From NCBI GenBank assembly GCA_937860145.1, contig CALMBF010000021.1:1-34480 (forward strand): a stretch of DNA of 34,480 nucleotides, written 5' to 3'. Position numbers and translations under genes: made by a program. Of this stretch, positions 9,001 to 27,075 are shown one piece after another (position 1 is the first letter of the stretch; every line of letters begins with the position of its first letter). Below the pieces are notes generated by a model, which was not told where the DNA came from, made no database searches, and worked only from the letters and a program-made list of their open reading frames with translations. Origin of the DNA: an uncultured Geobacter sp. Its GTDB lineage: Bacteria > Desulfobacterota > Desulfuromonadia > Geobacterales > DSM-12255.

Positions 9001-9801
9001 TCAGGAGGCGCTCTCCACCCCGGCCTTCAGGCCGGCGACGGCGGCACGGACCCGGCTGACCAGTTCGTCCCCCCCCCCCTGCTCGAAGAGCTTGACCAGG
9101 GCACTCCCCACCACCACGCCGTCGGCCACCGCGGCCACCGTGGCGGCCTGTTCCGGCGTGGAGATGCCGAAGCCGACGGCCACCGGCAGGCTGGCCCGGG
9201 CACGGATCCTCTCCACCATGGTGCCGATATCCTCGGCGACCGAACTCCTGGCGCCGGTGACGCCGGCAACGGAGACATAGTAGATGAATCCCCGGCCGAC
9301 CCGTTTCACCTTGTCGATGCGCGACCCATCGGAGGTCGGGGTGAGGAGGGAGATCAGGTCGATCCCGGAGGCATCGGACAGGCGGCTGAATTCGCCCGCC
9401 TCCTCCGGCGGCAGGTCCACCAGGAGGACGCCGTCCACCCCGGCGGCCGCCGCGTCGCGGCAGAACCGCTCAGGCCCGTAGATGAACACCGGGTTGTAGT
9501 ACCCCATGAGGAGGATGGGGACGTCGCATCCCCGACGCACCCTTTTTACCATGGCTAAAATGGCGGCAAGGGTAGTGCCGCCGGCAAGCGCCCGCTCGGA
9601 AGAGAGCTGGATGGTCGGGCCGTCGGCCATGGGGTCGGAAAAGGGCATCCCCAGCTCGATGATGTCGGCACCGGCAGCGGCCATCTCCGGGATGAGCCGC
9701 TCGGTCAGGGCCAGGTCCGGATCTCCTGCGGTAATGAAGGTCACCAGCGCCTTGCGCCGCGCCTTTTTCAACTGTGCAAACGTTTTCCCGATCCTGCTCA
9801 T
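9001..9801 (-). CDS. trpA: Tryptophan synthase alpha subunit
   Basis: TrpA cleaves indole-3-glycerol phosphate to indole and glyceraldehyde-3-phosphate and channels indole to TrpB. The 266-residue protein starts [20 protein letters not shown]. The two catalytic acids are in their usual places: Glu49 ([11 protein letters not shown]) and Asp60 (PMADGPTIQ). Later motifs are [24 protein letters not shown] and the phosphate-binding GFGIS segment. GGAG lies at good spacing before the ATG at 9801; the frame is open upstream but that region is the antisense of the neighbouring gene. Its normal partner trpB is about 1.3 kb upstream, separated by a transglycosylase gene and repeats, so TrpA is probably transcribed from the promoter at 10713-10741. 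Confidence 0.97.
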
Positions 9802-10940: not shown

Positions 10941-11057
10941 GAGCTGCGGATTTTTCGGCAAGATCAAGGCTGTCGAGGCGCGACGCGGAGGCGTAGCAGC
11001 GCTACGCCGCACAAGGAGCGCCGAAGACTTACGCAGATATTGCCAAAAAGCCGCAGC

Positions 11058-13888: not shown

Positions 13889-15376
13889 ATGCTGCTGGAT
13901 GCCGAAACATGCTACACCGCCCTCCAGGCCCGCGATCCCCGCTTCGACGGCCGCTTCTTTGTCGGCGTCAGTTCCACTGGGATCTACTGCCGGCCGGTCT
14001 GCCGGGCCATCACCCCCCGGAAGGAGAACTGTTCCTTCTACCCCAGCGCCGCTGCGGCGGAAATGTCGGGCTTTCGTCCCTGCCTGCGCTGCCGGCCCGA
14101 ACTGGCGCCGGGGCTGGGGCGGGTGGATGCCCAGTCCCGGCTGGCACGGCTGGCGGCGGAACGGATGGAAGCGGACGGCCTGTCCGACCAGTCCCTGGCC
14201 GGGCTGGCGGCGTCCCTCGGGGTGACCGACCGGCACCTGCGGCGGGTGTTTGCCCGGGAATACGGGGTGCCACCGGTGGCATGGCTCCAGACCCGGCGAC
14301 TGCTGGCGGCCAAGCAACTGCTGACCGAAACCTCGCTGCCGGTCATGCAGGTGGCCATGGATGCCGGGTTCGGCAGCGTCAGGCGCCTTAATGCCATGTT
14401 CCGCCAGCGCTACGCACTCACACCGGCCGACTGCCGCAAAAAGGAGAGGGTCGTGGCTGGCACGGACGAATCCGTCACCCTGTCGCTGGCCTACCGACCA
14501 CCCTTTGCCTGGGCAACGCTGCTGAAATTCCTCGGGGAGCGGGCCATACCGGGGGTTGAGCAGGTGGAGGGTTCCCGCTACCGCCGTACCGTGGTTGTCA
14601 GCCACAGGGAGTCGACCCTGCGAGGGTGGATCGGGGTGGAGAACCGGCCGGAGCGCAGCGTCCTGGAGGTGACGGTCTCATCCCCCCTGTTTCCGGTCAT
14701 CAACCAGGTGCTGGCACGGGTCCGATTCCTGTTCGACATGAACTGCGTACCGGAAGAGATCGGGGAAAAGCTCGGCGCCTTGCGGATCGGGGGGGAGGCG
14801 GTATTCGAGCCCGGCCTGCGGCTCCCCGGCTGTTTCGACCCTTTCGAGATGACGGTGCGGGCCATCCTGGGGCAGCAGATCACGGTGCGGGCCGCCCGAA
14901 CCCTGGCCGGCCGGATTGCCGCCCGGCTGGGGGAGGCGCTGCCGACCCCCTTCGCGGGGCTGAGTGTTACCTTCCCGACAGCGGAACGGATTTGCGCCCT
15001 GGAGCCGGTGGAAGAGCACTTGGGGCCCCTGGGGGTGATCGGCGCCCGTGCCCGGTCGATCCGTGCCCTGGCAGTGGCGCTGCAGACGGGGGCGATCCGC
15101 CTGGGTCCCGGCGCGGACCCGGAGCGGGAGATGGCCAGCTTGGCGCGGCTGCCAGGCTTCGGCCCCTGGACCGTCCAGTACCTGGCCATGCGGGCCCTGG
15201 GGTGGCCCGATGCGTTTCCCCATACCGACTACGGGGTGCGAAAGGCGCTGGGAAACCTGCCGGCCGGGGAGATCCTGGCTCTCTCCCGGGAGTGGGCCCC
15301 CTGGCGGTCCTATGCCGCCATCAGCCTGTGGAATCATCTGGGACGTACGAGCGAACCGGTTAATGGAAGGGGGTAA
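13889..15376 (+). CDS. alkA: Ada/AraC-AlkA fusion: methyl-phosphotriester sensor and 3-methyladenine DNA glycosylase
   Basis: A 495-residue fusion protein for alkylation repair. Residues 1-75 are an Ada zinc domain with four Cys (34, 38, 65, 68; GIYCRPVC and PCLRC), which in Ada accepts a methyl from DNA phosphotriesters. Residues about 82-185 are an AraC-type helix-turn-helix. From about 195 come the AlkA N-terminal domain and the HhH-GPD glycosylase: LPGFGPWTVQYLAMRALG near 421-438 and the catalytic Asp447 in FPHTDYGV. The Ada C-terminal methyltransferase domain is missing and is supplied by the next gene. I chose the ATG at 13889 with GGAG six bases upstream; the upstream open frame does not look coding. 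It lies on the plus strand, against its neighbours. Confidence 0.93.
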   Translation: MLLDAETCYTALQARDPRFDGRFFVGVSSTGIYCRPVCRAITPRKENCSFYPSAAAAEMSGFRPCLRCRPELAPGLGRVDAQSRLARLAAERMEADGLSDQSLAGLAASLGVTDRHLRRVFAREYGVPPVAWLQTRRLLAAKQLLTETSLPVMQVAMDAGFGSVRRLNAMFRQRYALTPADCRKKERVVAGTDESVTLSLAYRPPFAWATLLKFLGERAIPGVEQVEGSRYRRTVVVSHRESTLRGWIGVENRPERSVLEVTVSSPLFPVINQVLARVRFLFDMNCVPEEIGEKLGALRIGGEAVFEPGLRLPGCFDPFEMTVRAILGQQITVRAARTLAGRIAARLGEALPTPFAGLSVTFPTAERICALEPVEEHLGPLGVIGARARSIRALAVALQTGAIRLGPGADPEREMASLARLPGFGPWTVQYLAMRALGWPDAFPHTDYGVRKALGNLPAGEILALSREWAPWRSYAAISLWNHLGRTSEPVNGRG

Positions 15377-15380
15377 GACC

Positions 15381-15884
15381 ATGAAACGGACCTGCAGAAT
15401 TGAGACCCCTCTGGGCGAGATGATCGCCCTGGCGGAAGGGGATGCCCTGTGCGGCCTCTGGTTTGTGGGGCAGAAATATGCGCCCCACGACACGGCGGAG
15501 TGGACGCCGGACCGGGACCATCCGGTGCTGGCCGACCTGCGCCGTCAGCTGGCAGACTATTTCGCCGGCCGGTCGGCCAGCTTCGATCTCCCCCTGGCCC
15601 CCCGGGGGACCCCCTTTCAGACCGCTGTCTGGGCGCTGTTGCGGACCATTCCCCCGGGCAGTATCGTCACCTACGGTGCACTGGCCCGGCAGGTGGCGGC
15701 AAAGCGTGACGGGCGCGTCCCCTCGGCCCAGGCGGTCGGCGGGGCGGTGGGGCATAACCCGATCAGCATCGTCATCCCCTGCCATCGCGTCGTCGGGGCC
15801 GATGACAGCCTGACCGGGTATGCCGGCGGTCTGGACCGCAAAGCCGCCCTTTTGGCCCTTGAAAAGGGGCTGGGCCTGACGTGA
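15381..15884 (+). CDS. ogt: Methylated-DNA--protein-cysteine methyltransferase
   Basis: This 167-residue protein is an O6-alkylguanine-DNA alkyltransferase: a suicide enzyme that moves the alkyl group from O6-alkylguanine to its own Cys. The active site is Cys134 in IPCHRVVG, with the Asn of GHNPISIVIPCHR and the DNA-binding helix around PPGSIVTYGALARQVA; the C-terminal GYAGGLDRKAALLALE is also typical. The ATG at 15381 is four bases after the ada/alkA stop, and its GGAAGGGGG ribosome site lies inside the end of that gene, so the two are probably translationally coupled. An ATG at 15363 in the same frame is possible but has no good site. Together the pair covers the functions of a full Ada protein plus AlkA. 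Confidence 0.95.
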   Translation: MKRTCRIETPLGEMIALAEGDALCGLWFVGQKYAPHDTAEWTPDRDHPVLADLRRQLADYFAGRSASFDLPLAPRGTPFQTAVWALLRTIPPGSIVTYGALARQVAAKRDGRVPSAQAVGGAVGHNPISIVIPCHRVVGADDSLTGYAGGLDRKAALLALEKGLGLT

Positions 15885-15930
15885 GCCGGTGAGCCAAGGG
15901 CGATGGCGAGTAGGTAAAAGCTGCAAGAAA

Positions 15931-15956
15931 AGGGAACCGGCTTGCACCGGTTCCCT
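15931..15956. terminator. Terminator between convergent ogt and the sialidase-like gene
   Basis: A 10-bp perfect stem AGGGAACCGG/CCGGTTCCCT with a six-base loop. The minus-strand exit reads TTTTCTT, a fair T-tract for the sialidase-like gene; the plus-strand exit (CATGTTTGC) is poor but the stem may serve ogt too. Confidence 0.75.
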
Positions 15957-16047
15957 CATGTTTGCCCCCGCACATCATCCGGGAACAGGCCGGCGTCAGT
16001 CGTGAACTGACCTCCTTTGCCCCGCATGAATCAGGTAGAGCTGACCG

Positions 16048-17514
16048 TTACGGTTTCACGGAGATACGGGAAAAGAATATGTCAGTCGGGTTGGTCGCAT
16101 CATCGTTGGCCATGGGGAAGATGGCAACGAAATCGTTCCCGGCTGCCGTTGTCTTCAGGTAATCCCCCATGAACAGGACCATCGCCCCTGGTTCCGGCGC
16201 ATTGCGCAGGTTGAAGGGCCCTGCCACATGTCCCTCGGTCCAGTTGAGCCCCCCATCCTTGGACACCAGAGCCCAGTAATCGGTCTGCAGTGCCTCGGGA
16301 TCGCTGGTGTCGTTCCGGAAATCGTAGTAGGTGACGGCGACGTCGCCATTATCGGCAACGGCCACGGTGGGGGTGAAGGCAGGCGTTGTCGGCACGGGGT
16401 TGATCCTCTTCGGTGTCGACCAGGTTGCACCGTTGTCAGTGGACTTGATGAGGACAATCCCGCCGCCATAGGGGGCCGGGCCGAACCCCATGTCGCTCCA
16501 GACGATGTAGAGTGCACCACTCTGTTTGTCCACCGCAACATCCAGCAAGCCGCCACCGGTGTTCACCCACTGGCCGGTTGTCGGATCGCTGACATACCCC
16601 GGGTCAAAGGTGGTTATGATACTCGGCGCACTCCAGGTACCCCCCTTATCCACTGAACGAATAAAAGCGATGCTCGCACCACGCGCCCCCTGGGCGTTCT
16701 GGTAATCGGCGAAACGGGAGTACACATTCAGCAGGTCCCCATTGGGGAGGACAATGATCTGATGGCCAATATTGGTATTGTGGACCCCGGCGGACATGAG
16801 CTGCCGGGCAGGTTCCCAGGTGGCACCGGCATCAGTCGTCCGCGTGAACCAGGTGGAGCCCTGGCGTGAACGAGCATTCAGGAAGTTCGGCGTTGCCGTA
16901 TCCGCCGCCCACTCATTCCGGGTGAACGTCAGGTAGGCATAGTTAGCGTCATGGGGATCGGCCGTGATTGCCTGCTTGTCGGCACTGTTATCGGGGGATG
17001 CGTTAAAATAGACCGTCCGGGCCGGTTCCCAGCTATCACCATCATTGTGTGAAACCGAGACATGAAGCACACTGTTGCTGAAATCGGCGTCCATCCCGAG
17101 GGTGGCGAGATAAAGCGTGCCGTTCGGTCCCCATGTCAACCAGGGATCGCCTGCCCGCTGGGTTGTCCCCCCCGTACAGGTGGTCAAGAGCGGCACGGGG
17201 GCCTGCGCCCAGGACCTGCCGCCATCATGGGAAACCCCGGTGGAAACCCCATTCGCCCCACCCCACGACCAGCGGTCAGTCTGCCAGGCTGCAACGATAT
17301 TCTCCGGGGCCGCGGGGTTAACGGCAATGTATGGCTCGATTTCGTAATTGCGGTAATTAACCTGTCCCGGGACAGAACCACCGCAGCTCTCCGTGAACGA
17401 ACTCGCCCCGGAGACCAGTGCCGGGGCGGTCACGTTCAGGTTGAGTGCATGGACTTCCGCCCCGCTTAACCCCAGCAGCATGAGCGCACACCATAATGAT
17501 CTCGTTTTTTGCAT
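16048..17514 (-). CDS. Secreted sialidase-like protein with six Asp-box (BNR) repeats
   Basis: A 488-residue secreted protein. Residues 1-23 form a Sec signal peptide (cut probably after VHA). The mature part holds six Asp-boxes, S.D.G..W: SHDGGRSW 95-102, SHNDGDSW 155-162, TTDAGATW 226-233, SVDKGGTW 287-294, STDNGATW 358-365 and SKDGGLNW 418-425, spaced about 60-70 residues as in a six-bladed propeller. The family includes exo-alpha-sialidases, but Asp-boxes alone do not prove sialidase activity; I did not identify the full catalytic Arg triad. Cys44 and Cys113 may form a disulfide. GGGAGG five bases before the ATG fixes the start. It lies between trpF and ogt as a separate unit with a terminator, and its GC content is lower than that of its neighbours, which hints at acquisition. 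Confidence 0.85.
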   Translation of the reverse strand: MQKTRSLWCALMLLGLSGAEVHALNLNVTAPALVSGASSFTESCGGSVPGQVNYRNYEIEPYIAVNPAAPENIVAAWQTDRWSWGGANGVSTGVSHDGGRSWAQAPVPLLTTCTGGTTQRAGDPWLTWGPNGTLYLATLGMDADFSNSVLHVSVSHNDGDSWEPARTVYFNASPDNSADKQAITADPHDANYAYLTFTRNEWAADTATPNFLNARSRQGSTWFTRTTDAGATWEPARQLMSAGVHNTNIGHQIIVLPNGDLLNVYSRFADYQNAQGARGASIAFIRSVDKGGTWSAPSIITTFDPGYVSDPTTGQWVNTGGGLLDVAVDKQSGALYIVWSDMGFGPAPYGGGIVLIKSTDNGATWSTPKRINPVPTTPAFTPTVAVADNGDVAVTYYDFRNDTSDPEALQTDYWALVSKDGGLNWTEGHVAGPFNLRNAPEPGAMVLFMGDYLKTTAAGNDFVAIFPMANDDATNPTDIFFSRISVKP

Positions 17515-17788
17515 GAATACCTCCCTTTCCTGTTGTAATGACATGAAATATCCGACGACTCTGTCACGAAACGGTTCGCTGCACCCTCCACCGAGTCAAG
17601 GTCCACCTCTTCGTGCACTGGAAGGAAACGGGGAGCGGACCTTTTCATTAAAGAGACGTTGTGACCCGTAGAGGTAAGCAGGTTCCGTACCGATATCGAA
17701 AAAAGAGGCCTCCAACACGATAGGGGCGTAATATCGACAGGTTAGACGAGAGTGAGGATGGAGGTTGATGGCCAGGAATTGCTTAATG

Positions 17789-17811
17789 AAGTGTAAAGAA
17801 ATTTTACACTT
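17789..17811. promoter_or_regulatory. Operator-like palindrome, copy 1
   Basis: AAGTGTAAA, GAAAT, TTTACACTT: perfect 9-base arms around a 5-base centre. The central 19 bases are identical to copy 2. Confidence 0.65.
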
Positions 17812-17822
17812 CAGCGGCAGAT

Positions 17823-17859
17823 ATCCCGTAAAGCCCCATCCGGGGCTATGTTACGGGAT
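17823..17859. promoter_or_regulatory. Hairpin between the two operator-like palindromes
   Basis: ATCCCGTAA and TTACGGGAT form a 9-bp outer stem and AGCCCC/GGGGCT a 6-bp inner stem, with a small asymmetric bulge (TATG side). It fills most of the space between the two palindromes. Confidence 0.6.
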
Positions 17860-17878
17860 GTGTAAAGAAATTTTACAC
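17860..17878. promoter_or_regulatory. Operator-like palindrome, copy 2
   Basis: GTGTAAA, GAAAT, TTTACAC: the same 19 bases as the core of copy 1. Centre-to-centre distance is 69 bases, and copy 2 touches the intervening hairpin. Confidence 0.65.
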
Positions 17879-17960
17879 TGTAAAAAAACCTGCGCCCGCC
17901 GGAGGAAAGAGCAAAAGGAATTGTTCGGTCAAGGTCGGTATTCACCCACGCCACAGACGC

Positions 17961-17996
17961 AAAAAAGCCCCCGGAACCGTTCGTTCCGGGGGCTTT
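17961..17996 (-). terminator. Rho-independent terminator of trpF
   Basis: A 14-bp perfect stem (AAAGCCCCCGGAAC with GTTCCGGGGGCTTT), 5-base loop and a run of six Ts on the minus strand, about 20 bases after the trpF stop. It closes the trpE-to-trpF group. Confidence 0.95.
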
Positions 17997-18017
17997 CCCC
18001 ATGCTCGACAGGAGCGG

Positions 18018-18629
18018 CTACAGCCCCTTCGCCCGCCTGATGAACTCCCGCACCTTGTCCGGGTCCTTTTTCCCCGGGGCCGACTCCACCCCGCTGGAGA
18101 CGTCCACCCCGTAGGGCTGCACGGTCCGGACCGCCTCGGCAACGTTCTCCGGGGTGAGGCCACCGGCGAGGACCACCGGGCCGTACTGCTTCGCCTCGGC
18201 CGCCAGTTCCCAGTTGAAGCTCTTCCCCGTGCCGCCGTAGGCATCGGGACACCAGGCGTCCAGGAGGTAGCCGGCCACCTGGTATTTCGGCAGCGACGCG
18301 ATGCTGGCCGCGTCCTTCACCCGGAACGCCTTGATCACCCGGCGCTCCACCTCGCCGCACTCCTCCGGCTCCTCGTCGCCGTGGAGCTGGACTAGGTCCA
18401 GGCCGCAGAAGCCGGCGGTCCAGTTGACCTTCTCGGTCTCCTCGTTGACGAACAGGCCGACGGTCTGGACGAAGGGGGGGAGCGCGGCGATGATCTTGGC
18501 AGCCAGGAGGGGGTTGATATTACGGGGGGACTTGTCGTAGAAGACGAAGCCGAGGGCATCGGCCCCGGCCTCCACCGCCGTCATGGCATCCTCAAAGGAG
18601 GTTATGCCGCAGATTTTGACTCTCACCAT
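18018..18629 (-). CDS. trpF: Phosphoribosylanthranilate isomerase
   Basis: TrpF performs the Amadori rearrangement of phosphoribosylanthranilate to CdRP. The 203-residue TIM-barrel protein has the catalytic Cys7 in VKICGITSFEDA, then GFVFYDKSPRNI, DLVQLHGDEEPEE, the LLAGG-like VVLAGGLTPENV phosphate loop and GVDVSSGVESAPGKKD with the catalytic Asp. No clear Shine-Dalgarno precedes the ATG at 18629; AAAAGG lies about ten bases upstream, contributed by a short CGCAAAG-type repeat. It ends the E-G-D-C-B2-F order and is followed by a strong terminator. The 237-base gap to trpB2 holds two kinds of repeat. Confidence 0.97.
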   Translation of the reverse strand: MVRVKICGITSFEDAMTAVEAGADALGFVFYDKSPRNINPLLAAKIIAALPPFVQTVGLFVNEETEKVNWTAGFCGLDLVQLHGDEEPEECGEVERRVIKAFRVKDAASIASLPKYQVAGYLLDAWCPDAYGGTGKSFNWELAAEAKQYGPVVLAGGLTPENVAEAVRTVQPYGVDVSSGVESAPGKKDPDKVREFIRRAKGL

Positions 18630-18645
18630 AGGGATAAAACCTTTT

Positions 18646-18672
18646 CACCGCAAAGACGCGAAGGACGCAAAG
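18646..18672. repeat. CGCAAAGACGCG/GGACGCAAAG short repeat
   Basis: CACCGCAAAGACGCGAAGG followed by ACGCAAAG: an imperfect tandem of a CGCAAAG unit just upstream of trpF. It resembles a short intergenic repeat wording seen in many environmental genomes, and it is related to the arms of the repeat at 20278-20356. Confidence 0.55.
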
Positions 18673-18750
18673 AAAACCGAAAACCTGAATTGACAAGGAT
18701 ATTCAGGATGTTCGGGATGAGAAAAAACTGCAACGGCTTGAAACCAACGG

Positions 18751-18866
18751 GGGTTCAATTTTTAGGCAAGATCAAGGCTGTCGAGGGAGTAGGCGGAGGC
18801 GTAGCAGCGCTACGCCGCACAACTGCTCCCGAAGACTTAGGCAGATATTGCCAAAAAGTGAGCGCC
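18751..18866. repeat. Palindromic repeat element B, directly after the trpB2 stop
   Basis: Shares with element A the blocks GGCAAGATCAAGGCTGTCGA, GCGGAGGCGTAGCAGCGCTA and the following CGCCGCACAA, GAAGACTTA.GCAGATATT and GCCAAAAA. Its terminal arms are less well matched than in A. It begins at the base after the trpB2 TAG (18867-18869). Between the shared blocks the sequence differs from A (for example GGAGTA against CGCGAC), so the copies have diverged outside the structured parts. Confidence 0.85.
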
Positions 18867-20222
18867 CTAAAAGGAAACTTTCGGCAGGTGGGCCAGCGAT
18901 TCCTTGATCGCCTCCTCCGGATACTCGTAGTCCGTCAGCTTCCCGGCAAAGTAGTCGTCGTAGGCCGCCATGTCCACGTGGCCGTGGCCCGAGAGGTTGA
19001 AGAGGATGGTCTTCTCCTTCCCCTCCTCCTTGGCCAGGAGCGCCTCGTCGACGGCGCCGCGGATGGCGTGGCTCGACTCGGGGGCGGGGATGATCCCCTC
19101 GCTCCGGGAGAAGAGGACAGCCGCCTCGAAGCAGGCGAGCTGGTGCACGGCCTTTGCCTCGACGACCCCTTCGTGGACCAGCTGGGAGACCAGGGGGGAG
19201 GCGCCGTGGTAGCGGAGGCCGCCGGCGTGGATCCCCGGGGGCATGAAGTCGTGGCCCAGGGTGTACATCTTGGCCACCGGCGCCATCTTGGCGGTGTCGC
19301 CGTAGTCGAAGGCGTAGACCCCGCGGGAGAGGGTCGGGCAGCTGGCCGGCTCCAGGGCCATGATCTTCACCTCCCTGCCGCTCGCCTTGTCGGCGATGAA
19401 CGGGAAGGCGATGCCGGCGAAGTTGGAGCCGCCGCCGTGGCAGCCGATGACCACGTCCGGGTAGTCCCCGGCGATGGCCAGCTGTTCCTTGGCCTCCAGG
19501 CCGATGACCGTCTGGTGGAGGCAGACGTGGTTCAGGACGCTCCCCAGGGCGTAGCGGGTATCCTCACGGGTGGCGGCGTCCTCAACCGCCTCGCTGATGG
19601 CGATCCCGAGGGATCCGTTGCTGGCAGGGTCCTTGGCCAGGATGGACCGGCCGGCGTTGGTCCGGTCCGAGGGCGAGGCGAGGACCTCGGCCCCCCAGAG
19701 CTGCATCATGCTCTTTCTATACGGCTTCTGGTTGAAGGAGACCTTCACCATGTAGACCGTGCACTCCAGGCCGAACATCTGGCAGGCGAGGGAGATGGAG
19801 GAGCCCCACTGGCCGGCGCCGGTCTCGGTGGCGATCCGCTTCGTGCCGGCGACCTTGTTGTAGTAGGCCTGGGGGATGGCGGAGTTGGGCTTGTGGGAGC
19901 CGGCGGGGGAGACCCCTTCGTACTTGTAGTAGATCTTCGCCGGGGTCCCCAGGGTCTTTTCCAGCCGGTGGGCCCGGAACAGGGGGGAGGGCCGCCAGAT
20001 CCGGTAGATGTCGCGCACCGCCTCGGGGATCTCGATCCAGCGCTGGGTGGAGACCTCCTGTTCGATGAGCGCCATGGGGAAGAGGGGGAGCAGGTCATCG
20101 GGGGAGACCGGCTGCATCGTCCCCGGGTGGATCACCGGCGCCAGGGGGCCCGGCATGTCGGGGATGACGTTGTACCACTGCTTCGGAATCCGGTCTTCGG
20201 GCAAGAGAATCTTCGTATCCAT
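18867..20222 (-). CDS. trpB2: TrpB2-type tryptophan synthase beta-like protein
   Basis: A 451-residue PLP enzyme of the TrpB2 branch, distinct from TrpB1 at 11058-12248. The long N-terminal part ([20 protein letters not shown], then IHPGT) and the [12 protein letters not shown] form of the PLP site (Lys111) are typical of TrpB2, as are TETGAGQWG (Glu133) and GGGSN (263-267). TrpB2 enzymes turn indole and serine into tryptophan, generally without tight TrpA partnership. AAGGAG lies seven bases before the ATG at 20222; the adjacent ATG at 20225 is the alternative, and the longer frame to 20321 is rejected because it runs through a repeat. It sits between trpC and trpF, in the position where trpB would be expected in a compact cluster. 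Confidence 0.95.
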
Positions 20223-20277
20223 CATTGAACTCCTTCCACACATAAAGAGATAGCTCAGGTCATATCCAGAAAACAAA

Positions 20278-20356
20278 TCTCGCGCGGAGAGGCCGAGGAC
20301 GCAGAGATAATCCGGCAACATCGATCTTCTCCGCGTCTCTGCGTCTCTGCGCGTGA
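20278..20356. repeat. Large inverted repeat between trpC and trpB2
   Basis: Arms of 29-30 bases, TCTCGCGCGGAGAGG... and ...CTCTGCGTCTCTGCGCGTGA, match at about four fifths of positions with one indel, around a 20-base loop. The arms consist of tandem CGCAGAGA-like units. On the minus strand the hairpin is followed by TTTGTTTTCTGG, so it could act as a weak terminator 55 bases before the trpB2 start. Confidence 0.7.
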
Positions 20357-20374
20357 ATGGTCAGGTCAGGACTG

Positions 20375-21175
20375 TCAGCCCAGCAGCTCCTGCAGCTTGG
20401 CGCCGATGTCAGCCTCACGCATGAGCGACTCGCCGACCAGGAAGGCCCTGGCACCGGCACCCTGCAGCCGCTCCACGTCGGCACGGCTGTTGATGCCGCT
20501 CTCGGCCACGATCAGCCGCTCCGCCGGCACCATCGGGGCCAGCCTCTCCGTGGTCCCCAGGTCGGTGACGAAGGTGTGGAGGCTCCGGTTGTTGATGCCG
20601 ACGAGGGTGCAGTCGGTGCGGAGCGCCATCTCCAGCTCCCGCTCGTCGTGGACCTCCAGCAGCACGTCCAGGTAGAGCTCCCGGGCCAGTCCCAGCAGGT
20701 CCTCCAGCTGCGCCTGCTCCAGCATGGCGGCGATGAGGAGCACCGCGTCGGCGCCGACGGCGGATGCCTCGTAGACCTGGTAGGGGTCGAAGAGGAAGTC
20801 CTTGCGCAGGAGCGGCAGCCCCACCTGTTCGCGGATGAGGGCGAGGTAGCGGAGGTGGCCGAGGAAGAACTTCTCGTCGGTCAGCACGGAGAGGCAGGTG
20901 GCGCCGCTCTCCTGGTAGATGGAGGCGATCTCCAGGGGGTCGAAGTCGGGCCGGATGATCCCCTTGCTGGGGGACCCCTTCTTGACCTCGGCGATGACTG
21001 CCGTCCACCCGGAGGCCGAAGCATCCCGGAGCGCCCGCTCAAAGCCCCGGGGCTGGTCCTCCCGGTCTGCCACGCGGGCCTTCATGTCGGCAAGGGGCTG
21101 GGCCGAGCGGGCAGCGGCCACCTCGTCCCGCTTGTGGCTGACGATCTTCTGCAGTATATCCGGCGTCGCGGTCAT
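20375..21175 (-). CDS. trpC: Indole-3-glycerol phosphate synthase
   Basis: TrpC closes the indole ring, converting CdRP to indole-3-glycerol phosphate with loss of CO2. The 266-residue TIM barrel has VIAEVKKGSPSKGIIRPDFD with the catalytic Lys/Glu pair and phosphate site, LRKDFLFDPYQ, LEVHDERELEMAL, LVGINNRSL and the ESGI segment near the end. I chose the ATG at 21175, with AGGTGA at normal distance. An in-frame ATG at 21223 would add 16 residues (MSCSSPLPPHFFSGES) encoded by the terminator hairpin and its T-tract, so it is unlikely as the main start but worth noting. TrpC is separate from TrpF here, unlike the E. coli fusion. Transcription reaching it must pass the terminator at 21187-21238. 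Confidence 0.97.
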   Translation of the reverse strand: MTATPDILQKIVSHKRDEVAAARSAQPLADMKARVADREDQPRGFERALRDASASGWTAVIAEVKKGSPSKGIIRPDFDPLEIASIYQESGATCLSVLTDEKFFLGHLRYLALIREQVGLPLLRKDFLFDPYQVYEASAVGADAVLLIAAMLEQAQLEDLLGLARELYLDVLLEVHDERELEMALRTDCTLVGINNRSLHTFVTDLGTTERLAPMVPAERLIVAESGINSRADVERLQGAGARAFLVGESLMREADIGAKLQELLG

Positions 21176-21186
21176 GGACTCACCTG

Positions 21187-21238
21187 AAAAAAAATGCGGG
21201 GGCAGCGGCGAGGAGCAGCTCATCGCCGCAGCCCCCGC
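21187..21238 (-). terminator. Intrinsic terminator/attenuator between trpD and trpC
   Basis: On the minus strand a 16-base arm (GCGGGGGCTGCGGCGA) pairs with TCGCCGCTGCCCCCGC at 15 of 16 positions, with a small inner GAG/CTC stem in the 11-base loop, followed after one A by eight Ts. This is a textbook Rho-independent terminator placed 11 bases before the trpC start and 13 bases after the trpD stop. I see no clear competing antiterminator. Confidence 0.88.
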
Positions 21239-21251
21239 CGCACCCTGTTCA

Positions 21252-22304
21252 CTACTCGTTGGTCATCTTCACCAGCTTGTCCAACTGGGCGAGGGCCCGG
21301 CCGGAATCGATGGCGTCGGCCGCCATGGCGACCCCGTCAGGGAGCGTCCCCACCTTGCCGGCAGCCACCAGGGCGAAGGCGGCGTTCAGCAGGACGACGT
21401 CGCGCCGGGCTCCCCGCTCACCGGCGAGGATGCTCCGGACGGTCTCCGCATTCTGCACGGCATCGCCGCCGCGCAGGTCGTCCATGGTGCAGAACTCCAT
21501 CCCCAGCTCTTCGGGGGAGAAGAGCCGGACCTGCACCCCTTCCGGAGTTACCTCGGCCACCGAGGTGGCGGCGGTGAGGGTGACCTCGTCCATGCCGTCC
21601 AGGCCGTGGACCACGAAGCCGCGGCGGCACCCCAGGCGCCGCAGCACCTGGGCCAGGGGCTCAACCAGGTCCTCGCGGTAGACCCCCATGACCTGGCACT
21701 CGGCACCCGCCGGGTTGGTGAGGGGGCCGAGGATATTGAAGATGGTCCGGATGCCGATCTCCTTGCGCGGGCCGATGGCATGCTTCATGGCGCCGTGGAG
21801 GGCCGGGGCGAAGAGGAAGCCGACGCCGATCTCGCCTATGCAGCGCTCCACCGTCTCCGGGGTGACGTCCAGGTTGACCCCCAGCTTCTCCAGCACGTCG
21901 GCGCTGCCGCAGAGGGAGGAGACCGACCGGTTGCCGTGCTTGGCGACCTTGACGCCGCAGGCGGAGACCACGAAGGTGACGGTGGTGGAGATGTTGAACG
22001 AGTTGGTGCCGTCGCCGCCGGTGCCGACGACGTCGAGGATCGTCTCCTGGTCGATGTTGATGTCGTCCCGGTCGATGTCCACGGCCCCCCGGCCGACGCG
22101 GATCGGCGTGGCCCTGTCCCGCATCACCCGGGCGGCGCCGGTGATCTCGTCCACCGTCTCCCCCTTCATCCGGAGGGCGGTGATGAAAGCGCCGATCTGG
22201 GCCGGGGTCGCCCCGCCGGACATGATCTGGTCCATGACCTCGATCATTTCACCTTCGCTCAGGTCTTCCCGCTCGACAACCTTGGCAATCGCTTTCTTGA
22301 TCAT
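21252..22304 (-). CDS. trpD: Anthranilate phosphoribosyltransferase
   Basis: TrpD joins anthranilate to PRPP. The 350-residue protein carries the PRPP loop [14 protein letters not shown] (from 94), [15 protein letters not shown] (from 122), [20 protein letters not shown] and GPLTNPAGA. Length is normal for a stand-alone TrpD, without the TrpG fusion. The start is the ATG at 22304, five bases after AAAGG; a GTG two codons upstream is too close to that site. The gap to trpG (131 bases) is almost entirely palindromic element C, and the gap to trpC carries an intrinsic terminator. Confidence 0.97.
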
Positions 22305-22318
22305 ATGCACCTTTCTCT

Positions 22319-22437
22319 GAAATGCGGATATTTTGCAAGTTCAAGGCGACCGATGCAGGAGAGCGCAGGCGTACCTCTTGGTACGTCGAGCATCTCAAGC
22401 AGAGGTCAACGCCGAAATTGCGAAAAAGTCGCATTTC
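22319..22437. repeat. Palindromic repeat element C, on the trpG stop codon
   Basis: A 119-bp imperfect palindrome, the same length as element A. Terminal arms start GAAATGCG on both sides (16 of 20 positions match). The centre is GGCGTACC/GGTACGTC around TCTT. The right arm overlaps the trpG TGA (22436-22438). The centre and the flanking GTCGAGCAT match element D. Confidence 0.85.
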
Positions 22438-23005
22438 ATTTCGACATCTCCAGGAAGTTTTTCAGGATCTGCATCCCCCCCTCGGTCAGGATCGACTCGG
22501 GGTGGAACTGAACCCCCCAGATCGGGAGCGACGTGTGCTCGAGCCCCATCACCTCGCCATTGTCGACCCAGGCGGTGATCTCAAGGCAGGCGGGGAAACT
22601 CTCCCGCTCGACGACCAGGGAGTGGTAGCGGGTGGCGCTGAAGGGGTTCGGCAGGCCGGCGAACAGCCCCCGGCCGTTATGGTGGATGGGGGACGTCTTG
22701 CCGTGCATGAGGGAGACGCTCCGCACCACCTTGCCGCCATAGGCGGCGCCGATGGACTGGTGGCCGAGGCAGACCCCCAGGATGGGGATCTTCCCGGCAA
22801 AATGCCTGATGGCGGCAACGGAGATCCCCGCCTCCTCCGGCGAACAGGGGCCGGGCGAGATCACCAGGCGGGCGGGCTTGAGCGCCTCGATCTCCTCCAG
22901 GGTGATCCGGTCGTTGCGGTAGACCTGCACCTCCTCCCCGAGCTCGCCGAAATACTGGACGATGTTGTAGGTGAAGGAGTCGTAGTTGTCGATCATCAGT
23001 AACAT
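22436..23005 (-). CDS. trpG: Anthranilate synthase component II (glutamine amidotransferase)
   Basis: TrpG hydrolyses glutamine and passes ammonia to TrpE. The 189-residue class I amidotransferase starts [20 protein letters not shown] and has the triad Cys79 (GVCLGHQ), His168 and Glu170 ([13 protein letters not shown]). In many bacteria the same protein also serves PabB for folate; no pabB is seen here. AGAGGAG lies about 11 bases before the ATG. It follows trpE after a 150-base gap filled by element D, so classical translational coupling of TrpE and TrpG is absent. Confidence 0.97.
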
Positions 23006-23022
23006 GTTTTTTGAAACTCCTC

Positions 23023-23158
23023 TAACGGTTCAGGAACGTGGATTTTTCGATGAGCGCAAGGCGCTTGAGGGGGCGAAGCGGAGGCGTACTGCTGTACGTC
23101 GAGCATTTGCGCCCGAAAAGCAACGCCGCGATCGCGGAAAAGCCGCGTTCCTCCGTTA
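23023..23158. repeat. Palindromic repeat element D, on the trpE stop codon
   Basis: A 136-bp imperfect palindrome with arms TAACGG ... GGAACGTGG on the left and CCGCGTTCC ... CCGTTA on the right. The right end includes the complete trpE TAA (23156-23158). The centre is GGCGTAC/GTACGTC around TGCT, followed by GAGCAT as in element C. Confidence 0.82.
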
Positions 23159-24637
23159 ATCCAGCCCCTTTTCGGCGGTTTCGATCGCCTTGACCACCGC
23201 CATCCCCTTGTTGACCGTCTCCTGGTATTCGGCAGCCGGGTCGGAGTCGGCAACCAGGCCGGCCCCGGCCTGCAGGTGGATCCGCCCATCCTTCACCACC
23301 AGGGTACGGATGGCAATGGCCAGGTCCATGTTGTCGGAAAAGGAGAAGTAGCCGACGGCCCCGCCGTAGATCTCCCTGCGGCACGGCTCCAGCTCGTCGA
23401 TGATCTCCATGGCCCGCACCTTGGGGGCACCGGAGAGGGTCCCGGCGGGGAAGGTCGCCCGCACCAGGTCGAAGGCGTCGTTTCCCGGGGAGAGCTCCCC
23501 CTGGACGTTGGAGACAATGTGCATGACATGGGAGTAGCGTTCCACCGTCATGAGCTCGGAGACGCGGACCGTCCCGGTCCTGCAGACCCGGCCGAGATCG
23601 TTCCGCCCCAGGTCGACCAGCATGACGTGCTCGGCCCGCTCCTTGGGGTCGGCCAGGAGCTCCTCCTCCAGCCGCCGGTCCTCTTCCGGGGAACCACCCC
23701 GGGGGCGGGTGCCGGCGATGGGGCGCAGCTCCACCCGCTCCCCCTCCTTGCGGACCATGACCTCGGGGGAGGCGCCGAGGACGACCGTATCGTCCATGCG
23801 GAGGAAGAACATGTAGGGTGAGGGATTGAGGGTGCGGAGCACCCGGTAGATATCGAGGGGGTCCTGGGTCAGCTCCCCGGAAAAGCGCTGGGAGAGGACC
23901 ACCTGGATGATGTCGCCGGCACGGATGTATTCCTTGGCCTTTTCCACCGCAGCCTCGAACTCCTCCCGCCCCATGTTGGACGTGAAGGAGACCGGCCTGG
24001 ACGTGGCGGCAGCGGGCCGCGGTGCCGGCAGCGGTCCCTTGAGGCGGGCGATCAGGGCGTCGATCCTGCCCATCGCCTCCTCGTAGGCCTCATCCGGGGA
24101 TACCCCCTCGTCCAGGTGGGCATTGGCCACCACCTTGATCTTCTGGCGCACGTTGTCGAAGATCAGCAGGGTGTCGGTGATGAGGAAGCAGGAGTCCCAG
24201 GCACCGATGAGTGCCGGCTTGTCCGTGGGGAGGTCCTCGAAGAAACGAACCATGTCGTAGCCGAGGTACCCGACCGCTCCGCCGAAAAACCGGGGGAGTC
24301 CGTCGATCTCCACCGGCTGGAAACGCTTGAGATAGTCCCTGACAACCCCGAGGGGGTCGGCCGTTTCGGTCACCTCGGGGGGGGAGCCGTTTCTCAGGAG
24401 CTCGACCCTGGTGCCACGGGAGCGGATGACCACGGACGGGGTGGCGCCGAGAAAGGTGTAACGGGCCCACTTTTCACCCCCCTCGATACTCTCCAGGAGG
24501 AAGGCGTGACGGCCATCGTCGATCTTTTTGAAGGCAGTGACCGGGGTGTCCATGTCCGCCATGATCTCGCGGTAGACGGGAATCAGGTTCCCCTGGGCGG
24601 CCAGGCGGGAAAAACTTTCTCTATCGGGGGAATACAT
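23156..24637 (-). CDS. trpE: Anthranilate synthase component I
   Basis: TrpE converts chorismate and ammonia to anthranilate, the first committed and feedback-inhibited step. The 493-residue protein has the tryptophan-sensing LLES motif at 47-50, PSPYMFFL (272-279), PIAGTRPRG (306-314), then LVDLGRNDLGRV, AGTLSGAPKVRAMEIIDELE and the C-terminal chorismate-site IRTLVVKDGRIHLQAGAGLV. Feedback inhibition is inferred from the family and the intact motif. GGAG lies five bases before the ATG at 24637. Only 81 bases separate it from the upstream histidine kinase on the same strand. This gap contains a small CATCCC/GGGATG hairpin and a ten-codon frame without Trp, so no classical leader-peptide attenuator is present. 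Confidence 0.97.
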   Translation of the reverse strand: MYSPDRESFSRLAAQGNLIPVYREIMADMDTPVTAFKKIDDGRHAFLLESIEGGEKWARYTFLGATPSVVIRSRGTRVELLRNGSPPEVTETADPLGVVRDYLKRFQPVEIDGLPRFFGGAVGYLGYDMVRFFEDLPTDKPALIGAWDSCFLITDTLLIFDNVRQKIKVVANAHLDEGVSPDEAYEEAMGRIDALIARLKGPLPAPRPAAATSRPVSFTSNMGREEFEAAVEKAKEYIRAGDIIQVVLSQRFSGELTQDPLDIYRVLRTLNPSPYMFFLRMDDTVVLGASPEVMVRKEGERVELRPIAGTRPRGGSPEEDRRLEEELLADPKERAEHVMLVDLGRNDLGRVCRTGTVRVSELMTVERYSHVMHIVSNVQGELSPGNDAFDLVRATFPAGTLSGAPKVRAMEIIDELEPCRREIYGGAVGYFSFSDNMDLAIAIRTLVVKDGRIHLQAGAGLVADSDPAAEYQETVNKGMAVVKAIETAEKGLD

Positions 24638-24718
24638 CGTTACTCCAGGGTGGAAAATATTCTGAACGTATCACAGGGGGGGCGGGTTAGGCAAACATTT
24701 CATCCCGTGGGGATGCAC

Positions 24719-26959
24719 TCATCTCAGGGTAAAATAAAAGGTAGCCCCCTCCCCTTCGACGGAGTCGGCCCAGATCTTGCCGCCGTGACGGTGGATGACC
24801 CGCTGCACGATCGCCAGGCCGATGCCGGTCCCCTCGAACTCCTGGCCGTGCAGCCTGCTGAAGGGCATGAACAGCTTGTCGGCATAGCTCTTGTCAAAGC
24901 CTGCCCCGTTGTCCTTGACGAAGAAGACCGGGCGGGCGGCCAGCTTCTGGCTGCCGAACCGGATCACCCCTTCATCCTTGCGGGAGGTGTATTTCCAGGC
25001 ATTGTGCATGAGGTTGTTCAGCACGATCTCCAGGAGGCGCTCGTCACCGGTTGCGGCAAGGCCTTCCGCGATCTCGAAACGTACGCTCCTCTCCGGCGCG
25101 TGCTCCTGCAGGCTAGTGGCAATCCTCCTGGCGATCCTGGTGAGGTCGACGTGCTCCCTCTTCAGGCCGTGACGGGAAACGTAGGAGAGCTCCAGGATGT
25201 CGTCGATAAGTTTCCCCATCTTCTCGCAGCCGGCGACGATCCTGCCGAGGAGGTGGTGCGCCTCCCCGGAAAGTTCCCCTGCATGTTCCCTGCTGAGAAT
25301 GGAGCTGAAGCTGCTGATATGGCGCAGCGGCGCCCGGAGGTCATGGGACACCGAATAGCTGAAGGCCTCCAGTTCCCGGTTGGCGATCTCCAGCTCGGAG
25401 GTCCTCTCGATGACCCGCTCCTCCAGCTCCTGGTTGAGGCGACGGACCTCCTGCTCGGCCGTGATCCGGTCGGTGACGTCCCGCACGATCTCGATGCCGC
25501 CGACTATGTCACCGGCGGCATCCTTGAACGGCGACGCGGTGACTTCGAGGTAGTGTGACGCCCCCTCCTTATGGACATGCCGAAGTATCACATGGGTACC
25601 CCCGTCGCCGAGGGCGGAGAGGACGGGGCAGTTATCGCAGGGCTTTTCGTTGTGGTCGTACATCTCATAACAGGGCTTGCCGACAAAATCGCCGACCATC
25701 CCCCTGTGGGCATCGTTCTGCAGGATCACTCGCAGGTTGCGGTCCTGGATGCTGAGCCCTTCCCCCATGCAGGCGAGGATGGACTCGAGTTTTTTCTTTT
25801 CCGCCAGGAGCTCCTCGTGGGTCCGCAGGTACTCGTCGATCTGGTGGCGCAGCTCCTCCTGGGCCGCCGCCAGTTCGTCGTTCCGGTCCTGCAGGTCCCG
25901 TTCCCGGGCCCTGACCGCGGAAGCCATGATCTGGAAATTGTCGTACAGGTCGTGAATCTCAAGATAAGCGGAAAACCCTTTCTGCTCCCGGACTTCCGCC
26001 CCCGCCGCCAGCTGCCGGCTCGATTCGGTCAGGGCCAAGAGCGGCGCCGTTATCTTGCCGATCTTCAGATAGACGAGGATCAACGCCCCGGCGAGGACGA
26101 AGACCGCCAGGATGGCGAGAAGCCGTTCCATCTCCATGAGGGGGGCGAAAGCCAGCGTCTTGTCATGGACCGACACGATGACCCAGTCGTTCTGGGCAAA
26201 GGGGAGGACACTGCCGATGACCCTGCGCTCACCGAGCTTGAAGGAGTAGGTACCGCTGGTCCCCTGGAAACCGGCGGTGATCTGGGGGAGGGAGATGAAT
26301 GCCTCTTTCTCACCGACGAGCGCCCTGTCCGGGTGGGCGATGAGCCTCCCTGCCGGGCTGACGATGAAGGCATAGGCCTTGGAAGCGGTACGCGTGGGTT
26401 CGACCAGCTTGCAGAGGTAGGAGAGGTTCATGGTGCCGGTGATCACCCCCCGCTCCCACGGTATTGCCACGGAGATGACCGATTCGCCGCTTTTCAGCGA
26501 GACGAAGGGCTCCGACCAGGCAATCCGGCCGGTTTCCCGCACCTTCTTGAAGGGTTCGGAGGCGGCAAAGTTCTGCTTCTGCGCCGGTCCGCCGGCAGTC
26601 GCGACGGGGCCGGCGACACCAAGGAGGGCGCCGCGTTCGTCAAGGAACGTGATGGACTCGAAGAGCGGATCGTCTTCCAGCACCTGCTCGACCAGGGGGC
26701 GGATCCGCTTCTCCTCGAAGCTTCTGCCGTCGTTGACCACGTCCCGGACATGCTTGAGCATGACCACCGGCCGGGCAAGGAACAGCTCGACGGCCGTGGC
26801 GACGGTCTGGGCGACCTTCAGATTCTCCTGGCGGATGCGCGCCGAGGTCTCCAGGTGAAACAGGGTCACCGAAACCGCCATGGCAATAAGCATCGGCACA
26901 AGAGTGAAAAATGAGACGCTCGCAATAAGAGCCTTGCGAATACCCATCGGCTTGTTCAT
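24719..26959 (-). CDS. Membrane histidine kinase with Cache sensor and Cys-rich PAS domain
   Basis: A 746-residue sensor kinase (start at the ATG at 26959). Domain order: transmembrane helix about 7-30, a periplasmic Cache-type sensor to about 270, a second transmembrane helix (LLAILAVFVLAGALILVYL), a HAMP-like and coiled linker, a PAS domain, then HisKA (SYSVSHDLRAPLRH) and HATPase with NLMHNAWKYT, DNGAGFD and GTGIGLAIV. The PAS domain carries KPCYEMYDHNEKPCDNCPV, a cysteine cluster that could bind a metal or act as redox switch. There is no receiver domain and no adjacent regulator. The start is uncertain: an ATG at 27019 exists, but a TATAGT -10-like hexamer at 26999-26994 lies downstream of it. 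It lies directly before trpE; a functional link is not shown. Confidence 0.9.
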   Translation of the reverse strand: MNKPMGIRKALIASVSFFTLVPMLIAMAVSVTLFHLETSARIRQENLKVAQTVATAVELFLARPVVMLKHVRDVVNDGRSFEEKRIRPLVEQVLEDDPLFESITFLDERGALLGVAGPVATAGGPAQKQNFAASEPFKKVRETGRIAWSEPFVSLKSGESVISVAIPWERGVITGTMNLSYLCKLVEPTRTASKAYAFIVSPAGRLIAHPDRALVGEKEAFISLPQITAGFQGTSGTYSFKLGERRVIGSVLPFAQNDWVIVSVHDKTLAFAPLMEMERLLAILAVFVLAGALILVYLKIGKITAPLLALTESSRQLAAGAEVREQKGFSAYLEIHDLYDNFQIMASAVRARERDLQDRNDELAAAQEELRHQIDEYLRTHEELLAEKKKLESILACMGEGLSIQDRNLRVILQNDAHRGMVGDFVGKPCYEMYDHNEKPCDNCPVLSALGDGGTHVILRHVHKEGASHYLEVTASPFKDAAGDIVGGIEIVRDVTDRITAEQEVRRLNQELEERVIERTSELEIANRELEAFSYSVSHDLRAPLRHISSFSSILSREHAGELSGEAHHLLGRIVAGCEKMGKLIDDILELSYVSRHGLKREHVDLTRIARRIATSLQEHAPERSVRFEIAEGLAATGDERLLEIVLNNLMHNAWKYTSRKDEGVIRFGSQKLAARPVFFVKDNGAGFDKSYADKLFMPFSRLHGQEFEGTGIGLAIVQRVIHRHGGKIWADSVEGEGATFYFTLR

Positions 26960-27075
26960 CAACGACCCCGGGTGAGGATTTTGACCATTTGGCACTATAT
27001 CATGAAAAAGTTTTCGCATAAAACAGATTTCAGAGGGAGGTGACCGGCTGGTCGAACTTTTTTTCCCTGACCCAC

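Follow-up and report, generated by a model that had tools for sequence, protein, structure and literature searches.

A putative intrinsic terminator between trpD and trpC of an uncultured Geobacter sp., absent from this junction in the relatives examined

The trp cluster of an uncultured Geobacter sp. carries, between trpD and trpC, an unusually stable hairpin followed by a run of eight T. We consider it most likely to be an intrinsic terminator of the ordinary kind that is unusual in its placement, probably of recent origin and leaky, and not a conserved switch. The hairpin was analyzed within a window of 34,480 nt, the whole stretch of DNA under study, and reading of the minus strand found it at exactly the position that had been reported. 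It occupies a gap of 76 nt between the trpD stop codon (TAG, 21254-21252) and the trpC start codon (ATG, 21175), and the sequence bears out the original prediction of a 16-position stem with one mismatch, eight U, and a trpD stop located 13 bases upstream of the stem. The outer stem is made of 15 pairs and a U-U mismatch, to which RNAfold adds three inner pairs and a 3-nt apical loop, giving a predicted free energy of −37.2 kcal/mol. A single A (21195) separates the stem from the T-run, which is present on the operon's strand only. The stem is stable and GC rich and the U-tract stands right behind it; direction, stem, and U-tract together fit an intrinsic (Rho-independent) terminator, at which release of the RNA is predicted.

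The genes of the cluster follow one another on the minus strand in the order trpE-trpG-trpD-trpC-trpB2-trpF (Table 1). A mechanical list of open reading frames places the trpC start at an ATG at 21223, within the hairpin; because of the Shine-Dalgarno-like site and the alignment with relatives, the start was taken to be at 21175. This leaves only 11 nt from the end of the T-tract to the start codon of trpC, so no promoter fits there, and none was listed, in agreement with the earlier observation that no promoter is visible between hairpin and gene. The only trpC match of the genome is downstream of the hairpin, and therefore either read-through or another start is needed if the pathway runs. 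The second strong terminator of the cluster, 22 nt past the trpF stop, is likely to be the ordinary end of the operon.

Table 1. Features of the trp cluster around the trpD-trpC hairpin (window coordinates)
Feature	Position	Strand	Basis
Related sequence in trpE-trpG gap	23077..23149	-	73% to the trpG-trpD element, E 0.0015
Dispersed repeat filling trpG-trpD gap	22311..22435	-	8 own-genome matches at E<=0.01, itself and the trpE-trpG piece included
trpD, upstream of hairpin, no Trp codon	21252..22310	-	translation
Spacer of 13 nt, trpD stop codon to first stem base	21239..21251	-	sequence
Putative terminator hairpin, 43 nt	21196..21238	-	sequence and RNAfold
U-tract, eight T	21187..21194	-	sequence
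Shine-Dalgarno-like AGGTGAG of trpC, directly after T-tract	21179..21185	-	sequence
trpC, downstream of hairpin	20375..21175	-	sole trpC match of the genome
trpB2	18867..20225	-	homologues in relatives
Palindrome GGCGTAGCGCTGCTACGCC in trpB2-trpF gap	18798..18816	-	exact match to published Geobacter repeat core
trpF, last gene of cluster	18018..18629	-	open reading frame list and relatives
Second strong terminator, −27.0 kcal/mol	17965..17995	-	hairpin scan

The stability of the hairpin was compared with chance in a sample of its own genome comprising 424,880 nt (the window plus 390,400 nt of sampled sequence), scanned on both strands for hairpins (loops of up to 12, arms of at most 20) with a T-rich octamer behind them; three dinucleotide shuffles served as controls. 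The scan returned 128 hairpins with a T-tract. At −15 kcal/mol or lower there were 45 in the genome sample and 3, 3, and 5 in the shuffles, and at −30 kcal/mol or lower there were 2 and none in any of the three shuffles. The trpD-trpC hairpin was the most stable hairpin-plus-T-tract in these ~425 kb (the runner-up had −36.3 kcal/mol), and so it is not a chance match. The 91-nt stretch that holds it folded with a z score of −2.3, with 3 of 200 shuffles equally good, and a score of the d'Aubenton-Carafa type ranked it 14th of the 128. A simple terminator scan of the window did not include it in its list. When the window and contigs C79, C77, and C164 were examined for co-directional gaps no longer than 100 nt, with sample gene calls from a crude script, 4 of 87 such gaps carried a terminator of this sort, one of the four depending on a doubtful gene call (15360-15959); contig C155 (62% coding) was excluded from this count for its poor gene calls. 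The trpD-trpC hairpin is thus unusual in this genome but does not stand alone.

Conservation of the junction was assessed by searching for TrpC in 97 genomes, from collections that hold one genome per species, of which 93 gave a match. Fragments (G010 and G069) and G048 were left out, and 90 loci were examined, including the window's own: 4 were without trpD, 10 had a trpD-trpC gap of more than 320 nt, and 76 had the two genes adjacent. Of these adjacent loci, 51 (the window's own and 50 relatives) were scanned; in the remaining 25 the two genes overlap or are no more than 12 nt apart, which leaves too little room for a terminator. A terminator in the trpD-trpC gap was found in none of the 75 relatives with adjacent genes, the window's own locus alone being positive. 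G001, the other genome of the genus, has a gap of 3 nt by extrapolation and 6 nt to the first ATG; among nine further family members, the extrapolated gap is −8 to 5 nt in seven, and two (G005 and G008) have an extra open frame between trpD and trpC. These lengths were extrapolated to TrpC residue 1 and may be in error by a few bases. Eight of the 10 large-gap loci were without a terminator-like site, and the remaining two (L020 and L082) have several, in stretches that contain an open frame of ~400 codons. A second set of 64 trpD-trpC pairs, which includes the window and whose genomes partly overlap those of the first set, gave two weak candidates (−10.2 and −12.3 kcal/mol) at one distant locus, L174. 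Since the hairpin is absent in all 75 examined relatives, the same-genus genome among them, it was probably gained late. The original prediction had named loss of the stem or T-tract in close relatives as one result that would refute it; the stem is absent from the close relatives examined, and by that criterion the reading of a conserved function fails. These comparisons give no support to the view that the trp operons of Geobacterales share the hairpin as a conserved element of regulation. An open frame of one kind, with 194 to 222 codons, lies between trpD and trpC in seven relatives (L006, L007, L035, L072, L078, L081, and L089), and by its sequence it may be Uma2-like. In view of the extra open frames found in this gap in relatives, the trpD-trpC junction seems to tolerate insertions.

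The possibility that the hairpin is a second copy of something or a mobile element was rejected, as it is single-copy in its own genome. A 77-nt query covering the gap found no second copy there (next best match, E of 0.27), and a 20-base pattern with up to 3 mismatches had 11 matches in the same genome and 15 in a reversed control. A 64-nt query matched 40 of the 97 genomes (its own included) at an E value of 0.05 or lower, the matches other than its own site being pieces of 17 to 49 bases. Four of these were inspected. The best (L218, E of 1e-5; genome G065, C1:2431246-2431294, from another genus) is a similar GC-rich hairpin with eight T, located 3' of a gene whose product looks like a sigma-54-type regulator. 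A pattern for shapes like that of L218, run on 13 family genomes, found the window's site and one place in G009. We take this as convergence and not as proof of a family. A search of open-licence PubMed Central, by title or start of abstract, returned no paper on a trpD-trpC terminator in Geobacter.

We hypothesize that the hairpin is a recently gained, constitutive, partial intrinsic terminator whose strength is set by translation of trpD and which has no dedicated sensor, a reading that we regard as about evenly balanced between right and wrong. A ribosome close behind RNA polymerase at the trpD stop, 13 nt before the stem, would keep the hairpin from folding in time, and transcription would then run on into trpC-trpB2-trpF; where translation of trpD lags, polymerase would stop at the U-tract. 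Overall, message for trpC-trpB2-trpF would be somewhat scarcer than that for trpE-trpG-trpD. Termination, read-through, and ribosome gating are all things that we infer from what was observed, namely, the sequence of the hairpin, the stability predicted for it, its absence from the trpD-trpC junction of the relatives examined, and its single copy in the assembly. More tentatively, and at a probability that we would put well below that of the constitutive reading, it is possible that the hairpin constitutes a lineage-specific attenuator free of a sensor, in which expression of the second half of the operon would depend on how near ribosomes stay to polymerase at the end of trpD, the balance between the halves being set by the overall speed of translation instead of by tryptophan.

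The closest parallel is that of the constructs made with the E. coli terminator tR2 (Li et al. 2015, PMC4824070), in which, as in the trpD-trpC gap, an intrinsic terminator lies between two operon genes at a short distance from the upstream stop. The trpD-trpC hairpin differs in being a natural site with another stem, in an organism other than E. coli, known here from sequence. In that report, the ribosome that followed the polymerase silenced most of the activity of tR2 when the terminator stood a short way past a stop codon. Repression was almost complete at short distances, in two series that began at 8 and 9 bp; for 17 bp one series gave a TE of ~0.12 and for 18 bp the other gave ~0.8, the TE beyond 30 bp was ~0.9, and repression was lost when translation was uncoupled. 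The same paper states that numerous terminators are located between operon genes. The 13-nt distance falls within the tR2 range of strong to partial repression by the ribosome, and by analogy a ribosome keeping pace with the polymerase should suppress the hairpin in part or in large measure. The original prediction that the hairpin, read literally, would stop most transcripts before trpC is therefore not safe, given the silencing of tR2 described in PMC4824070, and its idea that a ribosome translating the last part of trpD could mask the stem is, on the same analogy, plausible. The footprint figures given in PMC4824070 (a ribosome protects ~10 nt beyond the A site, and 10 to 15 nt of free RNA are enough for folding) place direct masking of the stem at 13 nt as borderline and not clearly inside the protected range. 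Attenuation of the pyrBI type, as described in PMC4824070, is alike in that termination would depend on the distance between ribosome and polymerase, and differs in that the trpD-trpC site is in mid-operon. Several points weigh against the preferred reading: a hairpin of such unusual stability may fold despite the ribosome, the tR2 result comes from one E. coli system, and the trpD-trpC hairpin is known from one draft assembly only. Until the 3' arm has been transcribed, the 5' arm of the stem is predicted to pair with trpD sequence, and in this model such pairing could also weaken termination without any ribosome.

That pairing of the 5' arm with upstream trpD, available before the 3' arm is made, is also what a dedicated mid-operon attenuator sensing tryptophan, another ligand, or a protein might exploit, and a strong terminator placed in a biosynthetic operon invites such a reading, which we nevertheless judge highly improbable. 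The best competitor for the 5' arm reaches −26.7 kcal/mol, compared with −34.8 kcal/mol for the native duplex, and 24 of 60 shuffles provided an equally good alternative pairing; once the whole hairpin is present, the terminator fold is predicted to win over the pairing with trpD. An alternative pairing of the 5' arm thus exists but does not surpass that of shuffled sequence, and the idea of an antiterminator was dropped. TrpD has no Trp residue, and so a tryptophan-starved ribosome would have no cause to stall in trpD; the 13 nt behind its stop leave little room for an aptamer. Rfam gave no match at gathering scores. Five sub-threshold matches at E<=1 (E of 0.13 to 0.74, within 17900-24800), two of them over the hairpin (mir-939 and isrG), were taken as chance. 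The hairpin's absence in 75 of 75 relatives with adjacent genes adds to this. The lack of Trp residues, of an RNA family, and of a competitor pairing above chance level makes a conserved or sensing attenuator unlikely, and the original suggestion of a mid-operon attenuator that is conserved or responds to a ligand found no support in these comparisons.

A role in mRNA stability, in which the hairpin would protect the 3' end of trpEGD after processing and have little part in termination, seems to us unlikely. Strong stem-loops between operon genes are reported to set transcript ratios in Clostridium (selective RNA processing and stabilization; PMC8219983), and nine relatives (L010, L012, L040, L044, L067, L074, L076, L077, and L086) have strongly folding trpD-trpC gaps of at least 60 nt, with z scores of −2.4 or lower and no terminator-like T-tract. 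The trpD-trpC hairpin shares with the Clostridium elements its place between operon genes and differs in its long poly(U) tail; by the rules given in PMC8219983, a poly(U) tail of at least 4 with a U content of at least 7 denotes a terminator, and the eight U found here would be classed accordingly. Since the hairpin is not conserved, no selected role in stoichiometry is visible. It is less likely still that the hairpin is a full terminator ending the upstream unit, with trpC-trpB2-trpF served by a separate promoter. Two further short co-directional gaps combine a strong terminator with sound gene calls, and one of them, rpsI-argC (names read from translations), looks like the end of a unit, which lends this reading some color, but 11 nt are too few for a promoter and one located further upstream would transcribe through the hairpin. 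A scan for the sigma-70 consensus only, across 15000-27000, listed 2 promoter-like sites where 1.8 were expected, neither of them in the trp genes. An artefact of assembly or strain, by which the hairpin would be missing from most cells of the species, appears very improbable. The locus comes from a single assembly of 207 contigs with an estimated contamination of 3.84%, and each species is represented by one genome in the collections searched. Against an artefact, the genes on either side of the hairpin are intact, the nearest match of trpD is in the same-genus genome (87%), that of trpC in this genome is among the nearest (83%, compared with 84% for G005), and the hairpin is no copied repeat that would mislead an assembler.

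The other gaps of the cluster were compared with those of relatives. The gap before trpE is 81 nt (read by eye). The trpE-trpG gap is 150 nt here and a 1-base overlap in the seven family loci in which both genes were seen (L108 to L111, L113, L114, and L120). The trpG-trpD gap is 125 nt here, compared with an overlap of 10 in G001, G012, and G007; it is 60 to 72 nt in four others and 2,556 nt in G006. The trpC-trpB2 gap (149 nt here, 205 in G001, and 208 in G003) and the trpB2-trpF gap (237 nt here, 231 in G001, and 221 in G003) are much alike. In G001, trpE is not adjacent to trpG (L107, C208 5000-7460), the best trpE match being on another contig (C263:5126-6601), and so the operon seems to be split there. 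In the window, trpA lies at 9076-9780 on the same strand, ~8 kb past trpF and behind other genes; trpB1 and trpA are reported to be placed likewise in two Geobacter species (PMC2700814).

Repeats occupy other gaps of the cluster. The core GRCGTAGCGCTGCTACGCC, which the trpB2-trpF palindrome matches exactly, is described as a Geobacter (metallireducens) repeat by Aklujkar et al. 2009 (PMC2700814). Like those multicopy palindromes, the trpD-trpC hairpin is a palindromic sequence in an intergenic gap; it differs in being without that core, single-copy, and ending in a T-tract. The published core has 39 matches with at most one mismatch in the window's own genome, and a further exact copy lies in the window at 10990-11008. 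G001 carries a one-mismatch copy in its own trpB2-trpF gap, and the palindrome of that gap may therefore be older. In G. bemidjiensis, multicopy sequences are reported in 12% of the regions between genes (PMC2996986). Terminator-like sites, mostly weaker, were also flagged in other trp gaps of 21 to 699 nt, in counts of pairs that include the window and duplicate genomes: trpC-trpB2, 6 of 41 (for example, −17.5 kcal/mol in G007 and −22.6 in L178); trpE-trpG, 3 of 34 (−25.4 kcal/mol in L187); trpB2-trpF, 1 of 32; and trpG-trpD, 0 of 41. The window's own weak sites are in the trpC-trpB2 (−10.5 kcal/mol) and trpB2-trpF (−11.9 kcal/mol) gaps. Terminator-like sites within the operon are thus not unheard of in relatives, at other junctions.

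If the proposed gating is true, the trpD-trpC hairpin would illustrate, at a natural site, how the distance to a stop codon can set the strength of a terminator. The junction concerned is one at which close relatives mostly keep trpD and trpC abutting, and the hairpin would offer a view of an operon that puts up with, or makes use of, a stop signal acquired of late. Should the operon do no more than put up with it, the case would warn against assuming that each strong hairpin within an operon has a regulatory role.
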